Below, in pieces: positions 4,178 through 63,996 of a DNA stretch of 64,000 bases (the first letter of the stretch is position 1; every line of letters starts with the position of its first letter). A program made the translations under genes and the position numbers. This DNA comes from Verrucomicrobiota bacterium (GTDB lineage Bacteria > Verrucomicrobiota > Verrucomicrobiia > Chthoniobacterales > SZAS-18). A model generated the notes under the pieces. The model ran no database searches and was not told the DNA's origin. It saw only the letters and a program-made list of their open reading frames with translations. Where the stretch lies: the NCBI GenBank assembly GCA_019241085.1, contig JAFAXH010000040.1:1-64000 (forward strand), given 5' to 3'.

Positions 4178-5273
4178 CCGCGGGACGGCGCCAGAAATTT
4201 GCCACGAGCTTTTGCAAATGCGGCTGGCGCAGGTCGAAATCCTCGCCGCCGGGCGCTGCCATCGTTGCCGGCGGCGCGTTGGTCAGCGGCCATTGCCACC
4301 AAAACAATCCGGCGAGCCAGCCGCCGCGCGCCGCTTCGCGTTGCATCACGTGCAGCGCCGCGTCCACGCAGCGGCTCTGGATTTCCGCGGCGTGCGGACC
4401 GCCGCGGGGCGCGCTCCAGGGATCGCTCGCGGCGCGGGCACTTTCGTTGTAGCCGATCTGCACGAAGAGCACCGGCTTGTCGTGGAGCTTTTGCGATAGC
4501 GCGCGCAGGTTGCGCAGGTGTTTTTCCCAGCCTTGGGCGATCTGTTTCAAGCTCGGATCGGGCTTGCTCGTCAATGGGAAATAAGCGAGCACGCCGAGGT
4601 AATCGAGCGCGTCGTAAAAGCCGACCTGGCCGTAGGAATCCCAACTGCCGCCGTAGGTTAGCTTGCCGCCATAGACGGCGCGCACGGCGGTGATGATCTC
4701 GCGCCAGCGTTCCTCGATCACCTGGGCGTGCGTGTATTCCAACCCGATGCAGAGCAGGCCCGCGCCGTGCGCTTGGGCGAGACGCGCCGTCGCCACGATC
4801 CAGCGCAAATAGTCGGCGAAAAAGCGGTTCCATTCCTCGTTGGTGTTAAAGGAAATTTCGCCGCGCCAGGAGAAACGCGTGCCGCTGAAGCCCAGCCGCG
4901 CGATGAGCATGACGGCCAGGCCGCGTTCGCGCGCGCCGTCGAGCGGACGGCTGATGCGTTCCGGTTCGCGCGGATCGGAAAAGTCGATGTGACCATCCTC
5001 GCGCACCTGCGCAAACGTATCGAGCGCGACCGTGTTCACGCCGAGCACCTTCAATTCGTCGAACGTCTGCGCCAGCGCGGCGGACGTCCATTCCTGATCG
5101 CCGCCGGCTGGGTTGGAAATCGTCATGCCCCGGATCGGCATCGGCGGCTCGGGCAGTGGCGCGACGACTTGCTGCGCGCGGAGCGGCCACGCGAGCCACC
5201 ACGCAGCGGCCACGAGGAGAAAAAAACGCCGCGGAAAAAAGCGGCCGTTTTTTTGCGGAGGGAAAATCGGCAT
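4125..5273 (-). CDS. Secreted GH113-like glycosidase (TIM barrel)
   Basis: 382 residues from the ATG at 5273; a start at 5297 is also open. The N-terminus is Arg-rich then hydrophobic (FFLLVAAAWWLAWPLRAQ), a signal peptide with a likely cut after A-Q. The mature protein has the strands of a TIM barrel: RGMTISNPAG, LGVNTVALDTFAQV, LAVMLIARLGFS, LLCIGLEYTH, LDYLGVLAYFPL and PVLFVQIGYNESARAASDPW. The last resembles the GH113 strand that normally carries a Glu (E-I-G-Y), here Q-I-G-Y; the Glu in GLEYTH fits an acid/base position. It may be a beta-mannanase-like enzyme or a non-catalytic relative. It overlaps the DUF58 start by 53 bases. Confidence 0.65.
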   Translation of the reverse strand: MPIFPPQKNGRFFPRRFFLLVAAAWWLAWPLRAQQVVAPLPEPPMPIRGMTISNPAGGDQEWTSAALAQTFDELKVLGVNTVALDTFAQVREDGHIDFSDPREPERISRPLDGARERGLAVMLIARLGFSGTRFSWRGEISFNTNEEWNRFFADYLRWIVATARLAQAHGAGLLCIGLEYTHAQVIEERWREIITAVRAVYGGKLTYGGSWDSYGQVGFYDALDYLGVLAYFPLTSKPDPSLKQIAQGWEKHLRNLRALSQKLHDKPVLFVQIGYNESARAASDPWSAPRGGPHAAEIQSRCVDAALHVMQREAARGGWLAGLFWWQWPLTNAPPATMAAPGGEDFDLRQPHLQKLVANFWRRPADAPAPAEIPASDAAASP

Positions 5274-5354
5274 GGAACTGCGCGAGGATAAAGGCAAGCT
5301 GCCGCTGGCTCAATGCAGGCAGGGATGTTTCGCCAAAACGTCCCCGAATTAAAT

Positions 5355-5417
5355 CAGGGACGGCTCGGCGAGCCATCCCTACCGCATTTGGTAGAATGTT
5401 CGCCGAGCCGCCCCAAC
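5355..5417. repeat. GC-rich palindromic element G (upstream of the M48 gene)
   Basis: Two copies of a GGCTCGGCGA-type motif face each other. The left copy (5356-5373) reads GGGACGGCTCGGCGAGCC and is itself partly self-complementary; the right copy (about 5399-5414) is the reverse complement of GGGGCGGCTCGGCGAAC. A short AT-richer spacer separates them. It lies between the divergent GH113-like and M48 genes. Confidence 0.55.
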
Positions 5418-5489
5418 CAGCGCAAATCTAAACGCACGCGCGCCTTCGCTCACGATTTCACTGCGAGTTTTCCCATTTCCAAATTCACC

Positions 5490-6353
5490 ATGGAACAACG
5501 CTCCTACGTTCGCCTGCTGCCCATCGTCATCGCGCTCATCGCGGTGGCTTACAAATTTCTGAGCACGCCGAGTTTTGTGAACCCCGAGACCGGCCGCAAG
5601 GCGCGCGTCGGCCTCAATCCCCAGCAGGAACAGGCGCTCGGCTTGCAGAGCTACAACCAGGTGTTGCAGGAAGCCGGGTCGAACGTCGTGCGCAGCGGTC
5701 CGGTCGTGGACCAGGTCACGCGCGTCGCCCGGCGTCTCGCCGGTGCCGCGGCGGCACACGGGCAGCAGCAATACAACTGGCGGCTCAGCGTCGTGCGCTC
5801 CGATCAGGTCAACGCCTTTTGTCTGCCCGGCGGCGAGATCGTCGTCTATACCGCGATCCTGCCCGTGACGCAGCACAGCGCCGGGCTGGCCGTCGTCATG
5901 GGGCACGAAATGGCGCACGCCACCAGCCGCCACGGGGCGCAGCGGATGTTTCAACAATCCATCGCGCAAACGCTCATGACCGGCGCGCAATTTTCGCTCA
6001 CGAACCTGGATTGGAACCAGCAGCGCGCCGTCATGGGCGCGCTCGGCGCCGCCACGCAATACGGCGCGATTTTGCCCTTCAGCCGCGAGCACGAGAGCGA
6101 GGCCGATCACGTCGGCCTGCTTTACATGGCCCGCGCCGGGTATGATCCGCAGGAAGCGATCAAATTCTGGCAACGCATGGAAGCGCAGGCGGGCAGCGGC
6201 CGGCAGCCCGCGGAATTTGCCAGCGACCATCCGAGCCACGGCCATCGCATCGAACAATTGAAAGGCTGGATGCCGCAGGCGTTGCAGGAATACGAGAAGG
6301 CGCCGGAAAAAGTCCCCGCCAGCGAGGCGCTCGCACCGATCAGCGGGAATTAA
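5490..6353 (+). CDS. M48 family metalloprotease, membrane-anchored
   Basis: 287 residues from the ATG at 5490, chosen because the protein then opens with a typical signal anchor (YVRLLPIVIALIAVAYKFL); the upstream in-frame codons overlap repeat G. The zinc site is VVMGHEMAHATSRHG (HExxH), with the third ligand in SREHESEADHVGLLYM and the conserved AGYDPQEAI after it. The end has the family motif SDHPSHGHRIEQL. M48 proteins of this short type (YggG/LoiP/Oma1-like) are envelope proteases that degrade misfolded or stress-damaged proteins. It is monocistronic, with queA 44 bases downstream. Confidence 0.92.
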   Translation: MEQRSYVRLLPIVIALIAVAYKFLSTPSFVNPETGRKARVGLNPQQEQALGLQSYNQVLQEAGSNVVRSGPVVDQVTRVARRLAGAAAAHGQQQYNWRLSVVRSDQVNAFCLPGGEIVVYTAILPVTQHSAGLAVVMGHEMAHATSRHGAQRMFQQSIAQTLMTGAQFSLTNLDWNQQRAVMGALGAATQYGAILPFSREHESEADHVGLLYMARAGYDPQEAIKFWQRMEAQAGSGRQPAEFASDHPSHGHRIEQLKGWMPQALQEYEKAPEKVPASEALAPISGN

Positions 6354-6397
6354 AAAATTCCGCTCCCGCCTACGCCATTTGTCATTCGTCATTTTTT

Positions 6398-8040
<1,643 letters not shown>

Positions 8041-8045
8041 CTCCC

Positions 8046-8705
8046 GTGAACCACGAGCAAATCCTCATCGCTCCCTCCATCCTCGCCAGTGATTTCGCCG
8101 CGTTCGGCGCGGAGGCCCGCCGCGCGCAGGACGACGGCGCCGATTGGATCCATCTCGACGTGATGGACGGCCATTTCGTGGACAACATTTCCTTCGGCCC
8201 CGCCGCCGTCGCCGCCATCGCCAAACACACGACATTGCCGCTCGACGTGCATCTCATGATCCAGCGGCCGGACCATTTTCTGCCGCGCTTCCTCGCCGCC
8301 GGCGCGCGCCACGTCCTCGTCCACGTCGAGCCGGCCGCGCAACACGACGTGCGCCAGACGCTCGCCGCCATCCGCGCCGCTGGCTGCCTCGCCGGATTGG
8401 TCATCAACCCGCCGACGCCCTTCGCCGCGCTGGAGCCGTATTGGGGACAATTCGACACCCTGCTCGTCATGACCGTCAACCCTGGTTTTGGCGGCCAGGC
8501 GTTCCTGCCCGAGACGATGGAAAAGGTCGCCGCCGCGCGTGCGCAACGCACTGCGCGCGGGCTGCAATTTCACATCCAGGTCGATGGCGGCATCAATGCC
8601 GAAACCGCGCCGCTCGCGCGAGAGCATGGCGCCAATGTTTTCGTCGCCGGCACCAGCGTTTTCCACGCCCCTGACATGGCCGCAGCGATCCGCGCCTTGC
8701 GTTGA
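8046..8705 (+). CDS. rpe: Ribulose-phosphate 3-epimerase
   Basis: 219 residues, normal length. It interconverts ribulose 5-phosphate and xylulose 5-phosphate in the pentose phosphate pathway. The TIM-barrel motifs are all present: IAPSILASDF, IHLDVMDGHFV (metal His and catalytic Asp), LDVHLMI, VNPGFGGQ (phosphate-binding loop), QVDGGIN and VAGTSVF. The start is GTG at 8046, 6 bases after the right arm of element B1 and with no Shine-Dalgarno motif, so the upstream hairpin could influence initiation. A second copy of the same repeat family (B2) follows the stop codon. Confidence 0.97.
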   Translation: MNHEQILIAPSILASDFAAFGAEARRAQDDGADWIHLDVMDGHFVDNISFGPAAVAAIAKHTTLPLDVHLMIQRPDHFLPRFLAAGARHVLVHVEPAAQHDVRQTLAAIRAAGCLAGLVINPPTPFAALEPYWGQFDTLLVMTVNPGFGGQAFLPETMEKVAAARAQRTARGLQFHIQVDGGINAETAPLAREHGANVFVAGTSVFHAPDMAAAIRALR

Positions 8706-48726: not shown

Positions 48727-48830
48727 GGCTTAATCCTAATCTTAATCTTAGTCCTCTGCGCTCGTGGCGCGTCGCTCCAGATGCCTCCGGCGGCAGAGAC
48801 TAGGATTAAGATTACGATTAGGATTAAGCC
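48727..48830. repeat. Inverted hexamer-array element A1
   Basis: 104 bp. It opens GGCTTAATCC and closes GGATTAAGCC. Arms are tandem hexamers of NGATTA type (left CTTAATCCTAATCTTAATC; right GGATTAAGATTACGATTAGG). The GC-rich core reads TCTGCGCTCGTGGCGC and then GCCTCCGGCGGCAGA. It has the same core orientation as A3. Confidence 0.9.
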
Positions 48831-52673: not shown

Positions 52674-52776
52674 CTTAATCCTAATCCTAATCTTGGTCTC
52701 TGCCGCCGGAGGCAATGCTTGGGCCATGCGCCGCGAGCGCAGAGGGATTAGGATTAAGATTACGATTAGGATTAAG
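52674..52776. repeat. Inverted hexamer-array element A2
   Basis: 103 bp. Left arm CTTAATCCTAATCCTAATCT, right arm GGATTAGGATTAAGATTACG and onwards to 52776. The core is TCTGCCGCCGGAGGCA, a 13-base variable part and GCGCCGCGAGCGCAGA: the reverse-complement orientation of A1 and A3, the same as A4. Confidence 0.9.
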
Positions 52777-56286: not shown

Positions 56287-56406
56287 CACTCGGGCTTAAT
56301 CGTAATCGTAATCCTAATCTTAGTCCTCTGCGTTCGCGGCGTGTCGCCCTTGCCTCCGGCGGCAGCAGACTAAGATTAAGATTACGATTAGGATTAAGCC
56401 TGAGTG
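56287..56406. repeat. Inverted hexamer-array element A3
   Basis: 120 bp including outer CACTC/GAGTG extensions of the inverted repeat. The left arm is CTTAATCGTAATCGTAATCC and onwards, the right arm AAGATTAAGATTACGATTAG. The core has TCTGCGTTCGCGGCG and TGCCTCCGGCGGCAG, in the A1 orientation. It fills the gap between the divergent rhomboid and DNA polymerase genes, and the right end contains a GTG in frame with the polymerase. Confidence 0.9.
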
Positions 56407-56466
56407 GGAGACGCGGTGCTGACAGATGACAGGCAGCGGATTCCGGGCCAGAATGGCCGCACCAAA

Positions 56467-58734
56467 ATGCAATTTGCGGAAAATCGCGTCCTGTTCGGCC
56501 ACGACGAGACGCCGCGGCTGGTTTCCGTCGAGTTGGCGGGGGAAAAGGAAGTGCTCGTTTTCCGCCGTGAAGGCGCCGGGGTGGACGCTCGGACGGTGAC
56601 GGAGCGCGCGCCGTTTCAGCCGTTTCTGTGGCTGGCGGCGGACGCTAGTTTGACGCTGCCGGGCGATCAGACGCTGAGCGGCGGGCTGCACTTTTCGCGG
56701 CTCGCGCGCTGCGGGAGCTGGAGCGATTTTCAACGGCTGCGCGGCGAGTTGCGCGACGCCAACGTGTCGCACTTCGCGTTGAGCGACCCGGTGCAGCAAT
56801 ACCTCACGGCGACCGGGCGGACGTTGTTCAAAGGCATGGATTTCGCCGAGCTGCGGCGGATGCAGATCGACATCGAAACGTTTTGTGCGCGGGGCTTCGA
56901 GTTTTCCAACGCCGAGCGCGCGAGCGATCATCTCATGGCCATCGCGGTGAGCGATCAATCGGGCTGGGAAGAGTTGATTTTGGTCGAGCACAAAAACTTC
57001 GAGCAAAGCGAGCGGCTCGCGCTCGAACAGCTCAACGCGCTCATCGCCGAGCGCGATCCCGACGTGCTGGAAGGACACAATTTTTTCAAGTTCGACCTGC
57101 CGTATCTCGCGGCGCGCGCGCGACGGCACCGCGTGCGGCTCGCGTGGGGACGCGACGGCAGCGTGCTGAGTTCGCGCGCGTCGCGGGTGCAGATCGCGGA
57201 GCGGACGATCAATTATCCCAAGGCCGAAGCGCGCGGACGGCACATCGTCGATACGTTTTTGCTCGTGCAGCTTTACGACATCGGCACGCGCGAGCTGGAA
57301 TCGTTTGGGTTAAAAGATGTCGCGCGCCACTTCGGCATCACGGCGGGCGGCGGCGATGAGGCGCACGAACGCACGTATCTCAGCGGGCTGGAAATTCAGG
57401 AGGCATATCTGCACGCGCCGCAGAAGTTCGCCGCGTATGCGCTCGACGACGTGCGCGAGACGCGGGCGTTGAGCGGGCTGCTCAGCGGCAGCTATTTCAT
57501 CCAGGCGCAGATTTTTCCTTATAACTATCAAGAGGTCATCGTGCGCGGCAACGCGACGCGGGTGAACTCGCTCTTCCTGCGCGAATACTATCAGCGCGGA
57601 CACTCGATCCCGGATTTGCCGACCGCACGAGCTTACGAAGGCGGCTACACGGATGTCTTCGTCACCGGCGTGAAACACAACGTCTGGCACTGCGACGTGG
57701 CCTCGCTGTATCCGAGCGTGATGCTGCGTTACGACGTGTTTCCGGCGGCAGACAAGCTCGGCATTTTCCGCGGACTATTGACCGACCTGCGCGCATTCCG
57801 TTTGCAAGCAAAAGCCGACATGCGCAAGGCCGCGACGGACCCGGCGCGACGCCGCGAATACAACACGCTCAACGCGCTGCAAAATGTGTTCAAAGTCCTC
57901 ATCAATTCGTTCTACGGCTACCTCGGTTTTGCGCAGGGACACTTCGCCGATTACGACGCCGCGTCGCGCGTGACCGAGATCGGGCGCGACTTGTTAAAAC
58001 AGATGGTCGCGCGCTTGCAGACAGCCGGCGCGGAAGTCATCGAGATAGATACGGATGGCATCTACTTCGTGCCGCCAACTGGCGCGACGACGGAGACGCT
58101 CGGCAGGCAGCTTGCCGACGTGTTGCCGCAAGGCATCGAGATCGAGTTCGACGCGAAGTTTCAAGCGATGTTTTCTTATAAGGCGAAGAACTACGCGCTG
58201 CTCGCCGAGGATGGCTCGCTGGTCCTCAAAGGCGGCGCCTTGAAGTCGCGCGGGCTGGAGAAATTTCAGCGCACGTTTTTGGAAAAAATGATCTGCCACT
58301 TGCTCGCCGGCGAGCCGGAGAAAATCGCGGCGTTGCGCGAGGAGTATGAACGCAACATCCGCGAGCGGCTTTGGGAAATTGACTGGCTGGCGAAGACCGA
58401 CACGCTGCAAGATTCGCTCGGGCAATATCAGAAAAAAATCGGCGCCAGCGCGCGCAACCGCTCCGCCGCGTATGAACTCGCGCTGAAGAGCGGCCGCGAC
58501 TACCAGCCCGGCGATCAGGTGAAGTTTTATATCACCGGAGAAAAGAAAAAGGTGAGCGCGTATGACAACGCCAAGCTCGCCAGCGAATGGCGCCGCGATG
58601 CACGCGACGAGAACGTCGAATACTACCTCGACAAGCTCAACGAGCTAGTCGCGAAGTATGCCAAGTTTTTGCCGGCGGAAGCCACCGCGAAACGCGGCAA
58701 AGCCGATCCGCACCAAGGCGATTTGTTTGGGTGA
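56467..58734 (+). CDS. Family-B DNA polymerase with 3'-5' exonuclease
   Basis: 755 residues from the ATG at 56467, chosen because it lies beyond repeat A3; a GTG at 56404 would add 21 residues encoded by the repeat. Exonuclease motifs are MQIDIETFC (Exo I), LEGHNFFKFDLPYL (Exo II) and FAAYALDDVRETRAL (Exo III). Polymerase motifs are WHCDVASLYPSVML (A), VFKVLINSFYGYLGF (B) and EVIEIDTDGIYF (C). All catalytic Asps are present. Family-B enzymes of this bacterial type act in repair or damage tolerance. It is followed by hicBA. Confidence 0.95.
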   Translation: MQFAENRVLFGHDETPRLVSVELAGEKEVLVFRREGAGVDARTVTERAPFQPFLWLAADASLTLPGDQTLSGGLHFSRLARCGSWSDFQRLRGELRDANVSHFALSDPVQQYLTATGRTLFKGMDFAELRRMQIDIETFCARGFEFSNAERASDHLMAIAVSDQSGWEELILVEHKNFEQSERLALEQLNALIAERDPDVLEGHNFFKFDLPYLAARARRHRVRLAWGRDGSVLSSRASRVQIAERTINYPKAEARGRHIVDTFLLVQLYDIGTRELESFGLKDVARHFGITAGGGDEAHERTYLSGLEIQEAYLHAPQKFAAYALDDVRETRALSGLLSGSYFIQAQIFPYNYQEVIVRGNATRVNSLFLREYYQRGHSIPDLPTARAYEGGYTDVFVTGVKHNVWHCDVASLYPSVMLRYDVFPAADKLGIFRGLLTDLRAFRLQAKADMRKAATDPARRREYNTLNALQNVFKVLINSFYGYLGFAQGHFADYDAASRVTEIGRDLLKQMVARLQTAGAEVIEIDTDGIYFVPPTGATTETLGRQLADVLPQGIEIEFDAKFQAMFSYKAKNYALLAEDGSLVLKGGALKSRGLEKFQRTFLEKMICHLLAGEPEKIAALREEYERNIRERLWEIDWLAKTDTLQDSLGQYQKKIGASARNRSAAYELALKSGRDYQPGDQVKFYITGEKKKVSAYDNAKLASEWRRDARDENVEYYLDKLNELVAKYAKFLPAEATAKRGKADPHQGDLFG

Positions 58735-58755: not shown

Positions 58756-58953
58756 ATGCGATACCCAGTAGTGCTGCGCGAAACAGACGAGGGTTACAGC
58801 GTGCAATGCCCGGCCTTGTCCGGCTGTTGGTCGCAGGGAAAAACCGAGGCCGAGGCGCTCGCGAACATTGCGGATGCCATTCAGGATTACCTCGCTGCGC
58901 TGCACGATTCGCTGGCTGGCGCGGACGTGCGGGAAGTGGAAATTTCCGCGTAA
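58756..58953 (+). CDS. hicB: HicB-family antitoxin
   Basis: 65 residues from the ATG at 58756. RYPVVLRETDEGYSVQCPAL, GCWSQGKTEAEALANIADAI and QDYLAALHDSL are the conserved HicB N-terminal degraded-RNaseH-like fold. There is no C-terminal DNA-binding domain, so it is the short form. HicB neutralises HicA by covering its RNA-binding surface. The order antitoxin then toxin, 4 bases apart, is typical. Confidence 0.92.
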   Translation: MRYPVVLRETDEGYSVQCPALSGCWSQGKTEAEALANIADAIQDYLAALHDSLAGADVREVEISA

Positions 58954-58957
58954 TTCC

Positions 58958-59170
58958 ATGCCGCGGATACCGGGCGTCAATCACCTGCGCGCGGTCGCGG
59001 CGCTGGAGAAAGCCGGCTTCCGCATCGTGCGCCAAGGCAAGCACATCGTGATGTCGGACGGCGCGCGGTTCTTGACCATTCCGCGAAACAATCCGGTGAA
59101 TGCTTTCACGATGGGCGGCATCGCCAAAGACGCTGGCCTCGGCGTTGATGAATTCCGCAAGCTGCTTTGA
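58958..59170 (+). CDS. hicA: HicA-family toxin (mRNA interferase)
   Basis: 70 residues: IPGVNHLRAVAALEKAGFRI, then VRQGKHIVMSDGARFLTIPR and NPVNAFTMGGIAKDAGL. This is the HicA dsRBD-like fold with the catalytic His in G-K-H. HicA cleaves mRNA, arresting growth until HicB binds it. It is 4 bases downstream of hicB and 3 bases before a histidine kinase gene, so read-through into the kinase is possible. Confidence 0.93.
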   Translation: MPRIPGVNHLRAVAALEKAGFRIVRQGKHIVMSDGARFLTIPRNNPVNAFTMGGIAKDAGLGVDEFRKLL

Positions 59171-59173
59171 AAA

Positions 59174-60418
59174 ATGAAACGCGGCTTTGTCGATAAGCTC
59201 ATCGCGCGCCTGGGCCGGCTGCGGCCGGAGGAGGCGCAGGCGCATGTGTTGCGCATCGTGCGCGAAAAGGGGTTTCTCGAAACGATCTTCAACGCCATCC
59301 AGGAAGGCATCATCGTCACCGATCCGAATGGCCGCATCGCGTATCTCAACACGGCGGCGGCGCAGCTTTTCGGATTGAATCACGATACCGCGCTCGGTCA
59401 GCCGCTCGACTCCGCGGTGCGCGGCCTGGACTGGGCGTCGCTGGCGAACGCGGATGGCGGGCGCGACAAGTTCGTCAGCCGCGACATGGAGGTTTTTTAT
59501 CCGGCCAATCGCTTCCTGAATTTCTACGTCGTGCCGTTGTTGCTCGAAGAAACTCCGCGCGCCGCGCGCCGCCGTGGTGGGCGGCCGGATGAAGCCGCGC
59601 GCGTCGAGCGGGCGGGTCACGCGATGATCGTGCGCGATCTCACCGAGAGCCGCCGCAACGCGCAGGAGACGCTCGAAACCGAGCGGCTCAACGCGCTCAC
59701 GCTCCTCGCCGCGGGCGTGGCGCACGAGATCGGCAATCCGTTGAATTCTTTGAACATCCACCTTCAGCTCATGGAGCGGAAACTGCGCAAGCTGCCGCTC
59801 GGCGACCGCGCGGAACTCGAAGACTCCGTGCGCATCGCCAAGGACGAAATCCGGCGGCTCGATTTCATCGTGAGCCAGTTTTTGCGCGCCATTCGCCCGG
59901 CGAGTTTGCAGACGCAAATCGAAGACGTAAACGCCGTCGTGCGCGAGTCGGTCGCGTTTCTCCAAGCCGAAATCGAAGACCGCGACATCCTCGTGGAAAC
60001 CGAGCTGGCGGAAAATCTGCCGCCGCTGGAAATCGACCGCGACCAGCTCAAGCAGGCGTTTTACAATGTGATCAAAAACGCCGTGCAAGCGATGCAGAGC
60101 GGCGGCATCCTGCGCATCACGAGCGGGGCGGAGCCGGAGTATGTCTGCGTGGCATTCACCGACACGGGCGGCGGCATTTCGCAGGAGCATCTCAACAAGG
60201 TTTTCGAGCCGTATTTCACGACGAAAGCGAGCGGCAGCGGGCTGGGTTTGCTCATCGTGCGGCGCATCGTGCGCGCGCACGGCGGCGAGATCGAATTGCG
60301 CAGCGACGAAGGCCGCGGGCTGACAATCACCATCCGGCTGCCGCGCCGCGACAGGCAGGTGCGGATGCTGGCGTTGCGCGAGGGGGATAACGAGGCGTCG
60401 GGCGAGGACGAAGGGTAA
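59174..60418 (+). CDS. PAS-domain sensor histidine kinase
   Basis: 414 residues, soluble. Residues about 25-135 form a PAS domain (LETIFNAIQEGIIVTDPNGR, IAYLNTAAAQLFGLNHDTAL), the dimerisation domain has the phospho-His in LLAAGVAHEIGNPLNSLNI, and the ATPase domain shows QAFYNVIKNAVQAM (N), AFTDTGGGISQEHLNKVFEP (G1/F) and GSGLGLLIVRRIV (G2). This is NtrB/AtoS-like in form. No response regulator is adjacent. The gene follows hicA by 3 bases and is followed by repeat E. Confidence 0.93.
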   Translation: MKRGFVDKLIARLGRLRPEEAQAHVLRIVREKGFLETIFNAIQEGIIVTDPNGRIAYLNTAAAQLFGLNHDTALGQPLDSAVRGLDWASLANADGGRDKFVSRDMEVFYPANRFLNFYVVPLLLEETPRAARRRGGRPDEAARVERAGHAMIVRDLTESRRNAQETLETERLNALTLLAAGVAHEIGNPLNSLNIHLQLMERKLRKLPLGDRAELEDSVRIAKDEIRRLDFIVSQFLRAIRPASLQTQIEDVNAVVRESVAFLQAEIEDRDILVETELAENLPPLEIDRDQLKQAFYNVIKNAVQAMQSGGILRITSGAEPEYVCVAFTDTGGGISQEHLNKVFEPYFTTKASGSGLGLLIVRRIVRAHGGEIELRSDEGRGLTITIRLPRRDRQVRMLALREGDNEASGEDEG

Positions 60419-60422
60419 GTTT

Positions 60423-60593
60423 TAACACACAGGCACAAAGGCATCGAGGAACACATAGGATGGAGTTTTTTTACCTTCCAACCTTTACGCTTCTATCTTC
60501 TACTACTCACCATTCGCTATCTACTACCTATCTTCTACCTTGCTTCACTCTTCTACCTCCGTGTTCCTCGGTGTCTTTGCGCCTGTGTGTTAA
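60423..60593. repeat. Inverted tandem-array element E
   Basis: Left arm 60423-60455 starts TTAACACACAGGCACAAAGG and continues with a CGAGGAACAC end. The right arm 60561-60593 is the reverse complement with four mismatches in 33. Units are CACAGG-, CACAAAGG- and CGAGG-like. The ~105-base centre is pyrimidine-rich (TCTATCTTCTACTACTCACC, CTATCTACTACCTATCTTCT). The right arm contains the GTG start and first codon of the lipoprotein gene. Confidence 0.88.
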
Positions 60594-61066
60594 GATATAG
60601 CTGCTTCCTCGCGTTCAGTCTTCTCTTCGCCACCGGCTGCGCGCGCGGACCGCGCAACGCCACCGAGGCCAAGGCCAAAATGCCGCGCGTTTTCGCGGGC
60701 AGCGTGACGTTCGACGGCGAGCGCGCCGGCCGGCGGGTGCGCGTGCTGACCGATTCGTTGCGGGTGCGCGACGAACACACACTGGAATTCGAGCGCGTGC
60801 ATTTCTACGTGCTTGCGCCGCTGAGCGACGACACGCTCTTTGACGAAATCGTCGAGACGCACGGCACCATCGACGTGCCCGGCCTGGACATTCACGTTAA
60901 CGAGCACGACCTCGGCCGCGCGGGCGGCGAACCGCTCACGGTGCGTGCCGGTTCCTTCCACGGCCAGCTCAGCGCCGACCTGCGCACGGTCCACGCCGAA
61001 TGGTTCATGCCGGACCCGAACACCGGCGCGGAACGCAAAGCTGAGTTGAAGCTTCGCGCGCCGTAA
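60587..61066 (+). CDS. Small lipoprotein of unknown function
   Basis: 159 residues from a GTG at 60587. The signal is short (MLRYSCFLAFSLLFATGC) with a lipobox ending A-T-G-C, so the protein is probably anchored in a membrane via Cys18. The remainder is a beta-rich domain (MPRVFAGSVTFDGERAGRRV, RVHFYVLAPLSDDTLFDEIV, ERKAELKLRAP) without recognised motif. The start codon lies in the right arm of repeat E. It ends 15 bases before the stop of the convergent TIR protein. Confidence 0.6.
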   Translation: MLRYSCFLAFSLLFATGCARGPRNATEAKAKMPRVFAGSVTFDGERAGRRVRVLTDSLRVRDEHTLEFERVHFYVLAPLSDDTLFDEIVETHGTIDVPGLDIHVNEHDLGRAGGEPLTVRAGSFHGQLSADLRTVHAEWFMPDPNTGAERKAELKLRAP

Positions 61067-61081
61067 ATCAATTTCGGGATT

Positions 61082-63730
61082 TTAAGGCGCCGCCTGCTGG
61101 CTTTTTTCGCCGCTTTCCTGCGACGGCGTCGCGGTCGCCGCGGGGGCGGCAGCGGCTTTCGCCAGCACCAATCCACGTTTGGCTTCGGCCGATTCCGGTT
61201 CCAGCTTGAGCGCCTGCGCATAATCTTCCGCCGCAGCGTCCCAGCGGCCGAGCGCCAGCCGCAGATTGGCGCGTTGCACGAGCAAGCTCGCGCTCGGCTG
61301 GTGCGCGGGGCCGTTGAATTTGGCGTCAAAACGCGACAGCTCCTTCTGCAATTGTTGGGGGTCGGCGTAAGCCTTGCCGGCGGGCGTGTGCTCGCGCGCG
61401 AACGCCTCGCCCGCGGCCGCACACGCGGCGGCGTAGTCTTCGATGGCCTCCGCGCGGTTCTTTTCCGCTTCGGCGCGGTCGGCGGCTGCGAGGAATGCCA
61501 GTGCCGCGCGTTGCTGCGGGTCGTCCGACGCCGACGGCTGCGGCGTTGGCACGACGTTGGGCGTCATCGTGGGAGGATGAGACGGCGTCGCGTAGGCCAG
61601 GGTTCCCGGTTCGCTGGCGGATCGTTGTTGCCGCAGGAAAAGCCCCGCGCCGGCGACTGCGAGCAACACGACGGTCAACGCACCCGCCAGCGCGCCGATG
61701 GGCAGGCGTCGCCGCGCCGGACCTTCCACTGGCGATAATGATGCTGCTGCTGGCGCCAGCATGGGCACCGGCGCGGCGGCAGGCGACGACGCCACGGCCT
61801 GCGGCGTTATGGGCATAGCCGACGACTGCGCCGGCGCCGGCGTTGTTGCACCCGTGGCGCCGGCCGCTGCGCCGAGCCGGTGAAAGTGGAGCTGCCGCAA
61901 CGGCTCCGGCGGCGGCGGCATCGGGTCCTGCCAATACGTCGGCCGCACAAACGTGTCGCGGCGCAGGCTCAGCGCGTGCTGCCATTCGCGCTCGACGAAC
62001 TCCGAGCGCGCCGCGTTCTGCGACCAGAAGAGTTGAAAAATATCGGCCTCCTCGATGATCTTCCGCAGCCGCGCGTCCCATTTCTCGCCGCTGCGCAGGT
62101 GCAGCCAGTCGCGCAGATATTCGTCGCCGAGCGTGCGCGCATGGCGCTCGACGCTTTCGACAATTTCCACGTCCCGGTGCGAGTAAGAGGCAAAGATTTT
62201 GCGAAACGGCCGCGCGCTGCTCCGCTCGCGTCCGGCGACCTCTGCTTCCTTCGCCGCAAGATTGCCGAGCTGACTATCGACGCGGATCGCGAGGCTGATT
62301 TCGGCCAGCACCAATGGCCCGAGAAAAACCGTGAGCCGGCCGCGCGCCGTTTTCCCATCCAACGCCGCGCCCGCCCGCAGGTCGAACGTTTCGCCGTGAA
62401 CGCTCACGCCGTCTTTCCAAAAAAACGTCCGGTGCGGCGGATTAAATTCCACGCCGGCCAGCTCGGGCACAAACGTGATCTCGCCTTCGCGCGGCACGGC
62501 CAGCCGGCTGTCATCGGTCGTCTGCTTGTAATCCTCCGCGTGCTGCGGGCCGAGGATCGCGGCGGCTTGCGCGGCCATTTCCTCCAACGGCGCGCGTTCG
62601 TCGGCGTCCATCCAGGCGGGGCGTTCCTCGAGGTGCGCGAAGACGAGCAGCTTGGCCCATTTGTTGGGCTGAACAACTTTGGGTCGATACGCGGTGAACT
62701 GGACGTTTTCGTCGAGCGCCGGCGACGGCGTCGCGGGCGTGGTTGCCGGCGCTGGGGCGAGCGGCCGCGGCAAGCTGTCGAGCGGAATGCACGTCGTGTC
62801 GCCGGTCGAAGTCTCATCCTCAACCGACGCGCTCGTAGCAGCGGCGGGTGGCGGCATCGCGCGGCCCGCCTGGCAGGCTTCGATGTCTTGCAATAATTCC
62901 TCCGCCGACTGTGGTCGCTCGCCGGGCGCGCGCGCGAGCAGCCGCGCGAGCAACGCACGCACCGGCTCGGGCGCGCTGGCCGGCAGGCGGTCGAGAAAAG
63001 TTTGCGGCAGGTCGTTGTTGCCGACGCTGGACAACAGCGGGAGCGGCGACTCGCCGACGAGCAAAAACCAGAGCACCAAGCCGAGCTTGTAATAATCCGT
63101 GCGCCGGTCCGACACGCGGTGCTCTTTTTCCTCCGGGCTGAGCCAGCGCGGCCCGCCGCTGCCTTCGCCGCCCCAGCGCCCGGGCGAGGGCGGGAGCAGC
63201 GCGGCGGCTTCGTAGCTGACGATTTTGACCACGTTGTCCTTCGACCCCGCGCCGCCCTGCGTGGCGGCGGTGAACCGCAAAACGTCCGGCCCCAGATGCG
63301 GATGAACCAAGCCCAGCGCGCCGGCCGCTTGCAGCCCGAGCGCGACCTGCCGCGCCAGCTCCAGCGCCTCGGCTGCCGGCAACGGCCCGCGTTGTTTTAC
63401 CAGGTCGGCCAGCGACTCGCCCGCGGCCCGTTCCATCACCAGCACGCACCGCCCGTCCGTCGCGTGATCCGTGGCAAGCAAGGCGGCGACGTGCGGATGG
63501 TGCAGCGTCGCCAAAAGGTGCGCGATCTTTTCGTTGGTTTGCCACGCGCTGACGCGCAACACGACCTCTGGCGCATCGGCTGCGTCGGCGTCGGCGGTGC
63601 GCCGCGCCTTGTAAACCATGCCTTCCACGCCCCAGCCCAGCCACCACATGCTCCCCTCCTCGGGCCGCCGCAGGACGCGGTATTGCCCCAGGAGCGCGAG
63701 GTCGTCGTGGTCTTCGTCGTTGCCGGCCAT
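61082..63730 (-). CDS. Pseudokinase-TIR-membrane-TPR fusion protein
   Basis: 882 residues. Residues ~15-295 match a Ser/Thr kinase fold (YRVLRRPEEGSMWWLGWGVE, VERAAGESLADLVKQRG region) but lack the key residues: the H-R-D loop is HPHLGPDVL, no D-F-G follows, and the usual Lys strand reads VVLRVSA. A beta-rich domain (~345-500) precedes a TIR_2 domain (~507-620) with KIFASYSHRDVEIVESVERH and ADIFQLFWSQNAARSEFVER. A membrane helix (GALAGALTVVLLAVAGAGLF, ~677-697) and a C-terminal TPR region (NLRLALGRWDAAAEDYAQAL) follow. It appears to be a membrane-anchored signalling scaffold. Confidence 0.82.
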   Translation of the reverse strand: MAGNDEDHDDLALLGQYRVLRRPEEGSMWWLGWGVEGMVYKARRTADADAADAPEVVLRVSAWQTNEKIAHLLATLHHPHVAALLATDHATDGRCVLVMERAAGESLADLVKQRGPLPAAEALELARQVALGLQAAGALGLVHPHLGPDVLRFTAATQGGAGSKDNVVKIVSYEAAALLPPSPGRWGGEGSGGPRWLSPEEKEHRVSDRRTDYYKLGLVLWFLLVGESPLPLLSSVGNNDLPQTFLDRLPASAPEPVRALLARLLARAPGERPQSAEELLQDIEACQAGRAMPPPAAATSASVEDETSTGDTTCIPLDSLPRPLAPAPATTPATPSPALDENVQFTAYRPKVVQPNKWAKLLVFAHLEERPAWMDADERAPLEEMAAQAAAILGPQHAEDYKQTTDDSRLAVPREGEITFVPELAGVEFNPPHRTFFWKDGVSVHGETFDLRAGAALDGKTARGRLTVFLGPLVLAEISLAIRVDSQLGNLAAKEAEVAGRERSSARPFRKIFASYSHRDVEIVESVERHARTLGDEYLRDWLHLRSGEKWDARLRKIIEEADIFQLFWSQNAARSEFVEREWQHALSLRRDTFVRPTYWQDPMPPPPEPLRQLHFHRLGAAAGATGATTPAPAQSSAMPITPQAVASSPAAAPVPMLAPAAASLSPVEGPARRRLPIGALAGALTVVLLAVAGAGLFLRQQRSASEPGTLAYATPSHPPTMTPNVVPTPQPSASDDPQQRAALAFLAAADRAEAEKNRAEAIEDYAAACAAAGEAFAREHTPAGKAYADPQQLQKELSRFDAKFNGPAHQPSASLLVQRANLRLALGRWDAAAEDYAQALKLEPESAEAKRGLVLAKAAAAPAATATPSQESGEKSQQAAP

Positions 63731-63888: not shown

Positions 63889-63996
63889 CTTAATCCTAAT
63901 CTTAATCTTAGTCCTGGTCCTGCCGCCGGAGGCAGCGCTTGAGCCATGCGCCGCGAGCGCAGAAGGACTAAGATTAAGATTAGGATTACGATTAAG
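63889..63996. repeat. Inverted hexamer-array element A4
   Basis: 108 bp at the right edge, upstream of the pseudokinase-TIR gene. Left arm CTTAATCCTAATCTTAATCT; the right arm shares 20 perfectly inverted bases (CTAATCTTAATCTTAGTCCT on the left). The core is CTGCCGCCGGAGGCAG, a variable part and GCGCCGCGAGCGCAGA, as in A2. Confidence 0.9.

Follow-up and report, generated by a model that had tools for sequence, protein, structure and literature searches.

Both pseudokinases and TIR domains hold central places in eukaryotic immunity. In the literature and collections that we searched, no bacterial protein is described in which a fully dead kinase is joined to a TIR domain with an intact catalytic glutamate. 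A gene at positions 61082–63730 on the minus strand of the window, the 64,000-nucleotide stretch of verrucomicrobial DNA analyzed here, raises the question whether its product is such a protein and what the dead kinase would do in it. Were the kinase fold to act as a gate on the TIR domain, this protein would offer a simple one-chain system for the control of an NADase by a dead kinase.

Domain architecture of the gene

The open reading frame starts with ATG and encodes 882 amino acids without internal stops, and re-reading it returned exactly the coordinates and strand given in an earlier sequence-only reading of this DNA. The intact frame, together with a GC3 of 0.81 similar to that of the neighboring genes, indicates no obvious pseudogene. 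The encoded chain consists of a pseudokinase, a middle domain, a TIR domain, a membrane helix and a weak TPR, of which Pfam identified the kinase fold, the TIR domain and the TPR; all features of the protein given below are encoded on the minus strand. The TIR domain comprises residues 511–620 (61871–62200), based on a whole-genome family search and on a Pfam TIR_2 match (residues 512–618, E 6.7e-12) that exceeds the curated cut-off; the fusion of TIR_2 to the kinase-like part is contained in one continuous frame, as had been noted before.

Hydropathy analysis predicted a single strong hydrophobic helix for the entire protein, at about residues 677–701 (61628–61702), whose strongest segment (residues 681–699) reached a mean Kyte–Doolittle value of 2.38, in agreement with the previously suggested membrane anchor. 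The TPR-like repeat at residues 815–846 (61193–61288), predicted to be periplasmic, is plausible yet weak, as its Pfam TPR_2 match (E 1.5e-4) lies under the cut-off. The sequence-only reading had placed the TIR and TPR domains across the membrane helix from the kinase. The order kinase, middle domain, TIR, helix and TPR supports this for the TPR tail only, whereas the kinase and the TIR domain share one side of the membrane.

The kinase-fold domain lacks the residues of phosphotransfer

The kinase-fold domain extends over residues ~14–285 (62876–63691), as delineated by Pfam Pkinase (residues 31–281, E 7.7e-14), by profiles and by an alignment with 41 homologous kinases from the same genome and its relatives. 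The ATP-binding lysine, the helix-C glutamate, the HRD aspartate, the catalytic asparagine and the DFG aspartate are present in all 41 aligned kinases, whereas the window protein carries R59, I69, H145, V150 and S172 at these five positions. The substitution of the lysine by Arg59 (codon 63554–63556) lies within EVVLRV, that of the catalytic HRD aspartate by His145 (63296–63298) within HPHLGPDV, the catalytic-loop stretch HPHLGPDVL corresponding to residues 143–151, and that of the DFG aspartate by Ser172 (63215–63217) within KIVSYE, where SYE takes the place of DFG. The losses of catalytic aspartate loop, DFG motif and ATP lysine reported from the sequence alone were therefore borne out, and the alignment placed none of the catalytic residues at shifted positions at the sequence level, a displacement that had been considered as a case against the earlier interpretation.

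In agreement with the fold segments previously said to be kept, the Gly-rich loop GWGVEGMVYKA, an APE-like SPE, the helix-F aspartate (D212) and the helix-I arginine are retained. With all five catalytic residues replaced, the protein falls outside the active Hanks-type Ser/Thr kinases, whereas it belongs to the Hanks-type kinase fold by its Pkinase match and by a score of 164.5 bits with a profile of active kinases. Judged by these residues, the domain is a real pseudokinase that has lost all residues of phosphotransfer.

A degenerate kinase-like domain following an active kinase is frequent in this order, where it was found in 28 of the 48 kinase frames examined (L010–L038, L088–L098 and others); its consensus keeps a VAvK-like lysine and lacks HRD and DFG. 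Descent of the window domain from this tandem pseudokinase was considered and rejected, since it scored only 49.8 bits with the tandem-pseudokinase profile and was separated from that group in the tree, though on a long branch. Our quick tree placed it instead among the active kinases, at the end of a branch of 1.95 changes per column, so that the catalytic loss looks independent, with the uncertainty that long branches bring to such a placement.

The lost positions include the ATP lysine, the helix-C glutamate and both magnesium-binding positions, which weakens the nucleotide-sensor role that had been put forward for the dead kinase; with all five residues gone, binding of nucleotide and metal looks unlikely. 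The losses disfavor ATP sensing and favor control by protein–protein contacts, and a protein-binding or conformational switch would fit such a pseudokinase better.

The TIR domain retains the catalytic glutamate position

In alignments with the Allocoleopsis TIR protein described below and with TIR chains from the PDB, Glu582 (codon 61985–61987) occupies the position of the catalytic glutamate of TIR NADases. This site is a glutamate in 33 of 34 aligned TIR domains, and by profile it coincides with the glutamate of RUN1 and other PDB TIR chains, the match list including SARM1 and TIR-APAZ. The check for the NADase glutamate that the sequence-only reading had called for thus found the residue in place, and its absence, which would have spoken against the proposal, was not observed. 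Profile-defined fold and catalytic glutamate in the helix-C region together match the features of a TIR NADase; they suggest NADase activity, of which the glutamate alone is no proof.

A conserved middle domain links the protein to a cyanobacterial plasmid

Between the kinase and the TIR domain we identified a conserved domain at residues ~340–485 (62276–62713) that the sequence-only reading had overlooked and for which Pfam and NCBIfam gave no match. A tblastn search of plasmids returned the TIR protein WP_015211574.1 of Allocoleopsis franciscana PCC 7113 (E 6e-13), in which the homologous region precedes a C-terminal TIR domain. The two proteins share the middle domain followed by a TIR of the same class, with 31% identity over 209 residues, whereas the Allocoleopsis protein is devoid of a kinase, has a second TIR-like domain as its amino-terminal half, and is encoded on a cyanobacterial plasmid with a caspase-family gene nearby. 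The middle domain marks a TIR-linked module that is missed by Pfam and NCBIfam and that the window protein has in common with the protein of the cyanobacterial plasmid.

When 388 genomes from the phylum were searched with profiles, no true further member emerged. Weak matches were rejected on reading, as they fell in a PKD-repeat protein, a transposase and a histidine kinase (L101–L103), and a further one (L052) lay antisense to an RNase D-like gene. Neither viral contigs nor phages contained a match to the middle domain plus TIR. For the middle domain, single-sequence AlphaFold modeling reached a pLDDT of 38, too low for use.

Genomic context and distribution

The gene is surrounded by genes for a rhomboid protease, a family-B polymerase, a HicA-like frame, a histidine kinase, a lipoprotein-like frame, an NtrC-type regulator, an amidase and LipA, the identities of the last three being assigned from sequence. 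One flank is formed by the PAS histidine kinase (59174–60418, plus strand), matched at E ≤ 1e-60 in 37 of 38 genomes including its own, and by the lipoprotein-like frame (60587–61066, plus strand), which converges with the TIR gene across a gap of 15 bp; the other flank is the NtrC-type regulator, starting at contig position 64031. In five relatives (G002, G008, G009, G018, G025) histidine kinase and regulator are directly adjacent, and the dead-kinase TIR gene occupies the gap between them on the opposite strand, giving the locus the look of a single-gene insertion. G001 and G005, two genomes from the same family, carry the lipoprotein-like frame after the histidine kinase, and the regulator was not found in the stretch examined, indicating that the site varies.

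No partner gene was seen to accompany the insertion at the locus, and no ortholog was detected in 57 relatives or in searches that covered 289–388 genomes from across the phylum. A pattern-based scan of 84,980 species, which detects close relatives only, likewise gave no ortholog; in genome contigs the whole protein matched nothing but a TPR in a Flavobacteriales MAG. These data fit a single inserted accessory gene, whose patchy distribution would, by analogy, resemble that of conflict genes.

Two further elements were observed in this part of the window. The HicA-like frame (58868–59170, 100 residues) follows the family-B DNA polymerase (56404–58734) and immediately precedes the histidine kinase. 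Intergenic hairpin repeats, with arms of ~25–30 nt built from GATTA-n hexamers and a GC-rich loop of ~48 nt, occur at 48729–48828, 52674–52776, 56295–56398 and 63889–63994, one of them located between the dead-kinase TIR gene and the NtrC regulator; the arm yielded 135 matches genome-wide versus 1 for a reversed control.

Proposed mechanism and alternative readings

As a tentative explanation, to which we assign slightly less than even confidence, the gene may encode a membrane-anchored receptor and effector in one chain, in which a TIR NADase is restrained by a non-catalytic kinase scaffold. Pseudokinase, middle domain and TIR would reside in the cytosol, with one helix crossing the inner membrane and a short TPR-like tail in the periplasm. 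A signal peptide is lacking and the TIR would require NAD+ from the cytosol, which suggests this topology; the helix itself is predicted from hydropathy, and positive charge is similar on both its sides. The pseudokinase, unable to transfer phosphate, would most likely act as a protein-binding or conformational scaffold holding the TIR monomeric or occluded. Binding of a partner by the pseudokinase, or a change of the envelope sensed via the tail, might then permit TIR assembly and NAD+ cleavage, leading to growth stop or cell death. The domain architecture, the loss of five kinase positions, the retained TIR glutamate, the intact frame and the patchy distribution favor this model, whereas the absence of defense neighbors and of orthologs, as well as the limited weight of a glutamate as evidence for catalysis, weaken it. 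Overall, the gene looks like a candidate one-gene alarm for stress or phage.

Rather unlikely, in our estimation, is a role as a signaling adaptor that does not kill, with pseudokinase and TIR serving as assembly modules in a Ser/Thr kinase or two-component network of the host; any NAD+ cleavage by the TIR would then be too slow to do harm. The order is rich in Ser/Thr kinases, many with the tandem pseudokinase domain described above, the class has many TIR-TM-TPR proteins, and the gene is flanked by a histidine kinase on one side and the likely partner regulator of that kinase on the other. However, the adjacent kinase–regulator pair is present in relatives devoid of the gene, and the TIR glutamate has been kept.

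Doubtful as well is an antiphage abortive-infection gene whose pseudokinase or middle domain would sense a phage protein and activate the TIR NADase. As this is a special case of the receptor–effector model, the confidences in the two overlap. TIR NADases function in many defense systems, and the sporadic distribution and the position at a conserved locus are in line with such a role. A direct phage-protein trigger is known for Swarozyc, a single-gene TIR-like NADase activated by a phage portal (PMC13174449). On the other hand, the neighbors form no defense island, no known system matched, and the PADLOC matches cover generic kinase and TIR regions only, leaving the antiphage role raised by the sequence-only reading devoid of direct support.

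We consider it very improbable that the pseudokinase performs a non-canonical catalysis, comparable to AMPylation by SelO or glutamylation by SidJ with their unorthodox kinase folds: the Gly-rich loop is retained and precedents are cited (PMC13174449, PMC12599244), but every one of the five catalytic residues is lost. Least probable of all is a decaying gene, a once-active kinase fused to a TIR and now losing its function, as the long kinase branch and the missing orthologs might indicate, given that the 2.65 kb frame is intact with coding-like GC3 and that fold residues and TIR glutamate persist.

Comparison with known systems

The locus was also compared with characterized systems. In Thoeris a TIR protein, ThsB, is encoded beside the effector gene thsA; here the neighbors are housekeeping and two-component genes, and no ThsB model was among the best 25 of 30 PADLOC matches. 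The kinase region matched PD-T4-6, a defense system consisting of a single Ser/Thr kinase, with a PADLOC E-value of 1.9e-28, a generic kinase match. PD-T4-6 defense requires an active kinase, whereas the window kinase is dead and fused to a TIR.

TIR-TM-TPR proteins of the class (L041, L045, L048, L050, L053) share with the window protein a TIR domain, a hydrophobic helix, TPR-type repeats as read from their sequences, not by Pfam, and a glutamate in an FRxEW-type motif; in contrast, their TIR is amino-terminal, and pseudokinase and middle domain are lacking. Likewise, several of the seven reviewed bacterial pseudokinase families (ActPs1–3, GLW, CP1, DYD, DLHK) lack all three catalytic motifs, and some carry a membrane helix C-terminal to the pseudokinase (PMC12599244). 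The text of the review mentions neither TIR domains nor Verrucomicrobia, and the motifs of the window protein are R59, HPH and SYE.

Comparable as well are seven proteins of the order that combine a TIR, an active kinase and a second kinase-like domain without HRD and DFG in one chain (L148–L151, L155, L157 and, in contig C115 of the same genome, L082 at 4669–8268). They resemble the window protein in uniting a TIR with a dead kinase-like domain, and differ in their amino-terminal TIR, the presence of an active kinase and a dead domain of another branch; the own-genome fusion ends in an FHA domain and carries a glutamine where other TIR domains have the glutamate. On a plasmid of Candidatus Chlorohelix (L079, 3203–6657), TIR and kinase are partners in separate chains: downstream of a Swt1-type HEPN gene, an FHA-GAF-TIR gene overlaps a gene for an active Ser/Thr kinase with TPR. 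The recurrence of the fusions in the order and of tandem kinase–pseudokinase proteins suggests that this lineage habitually couples dead kinases to signaling and TIR modules. That pseudokinases, either by themselves as here or together with an active kinase in the fusions, would gate TIR NADases as an order-wide strategy, a bacterial parallel to JAK- and RIPK-type signaling, is a wider proposition that we regard as distinctly unlikely.

Finally, among the immediate neighbors read on either side, no MoxR ATPase or vWA gene of the ternary vWA-MoxR systems was present. In these conflict systems the kinase domains are mostly catalytically disrupted and TIR domains act as effectors (PMC7159879), which provides a precedent for the gated TIR effector proposed here.
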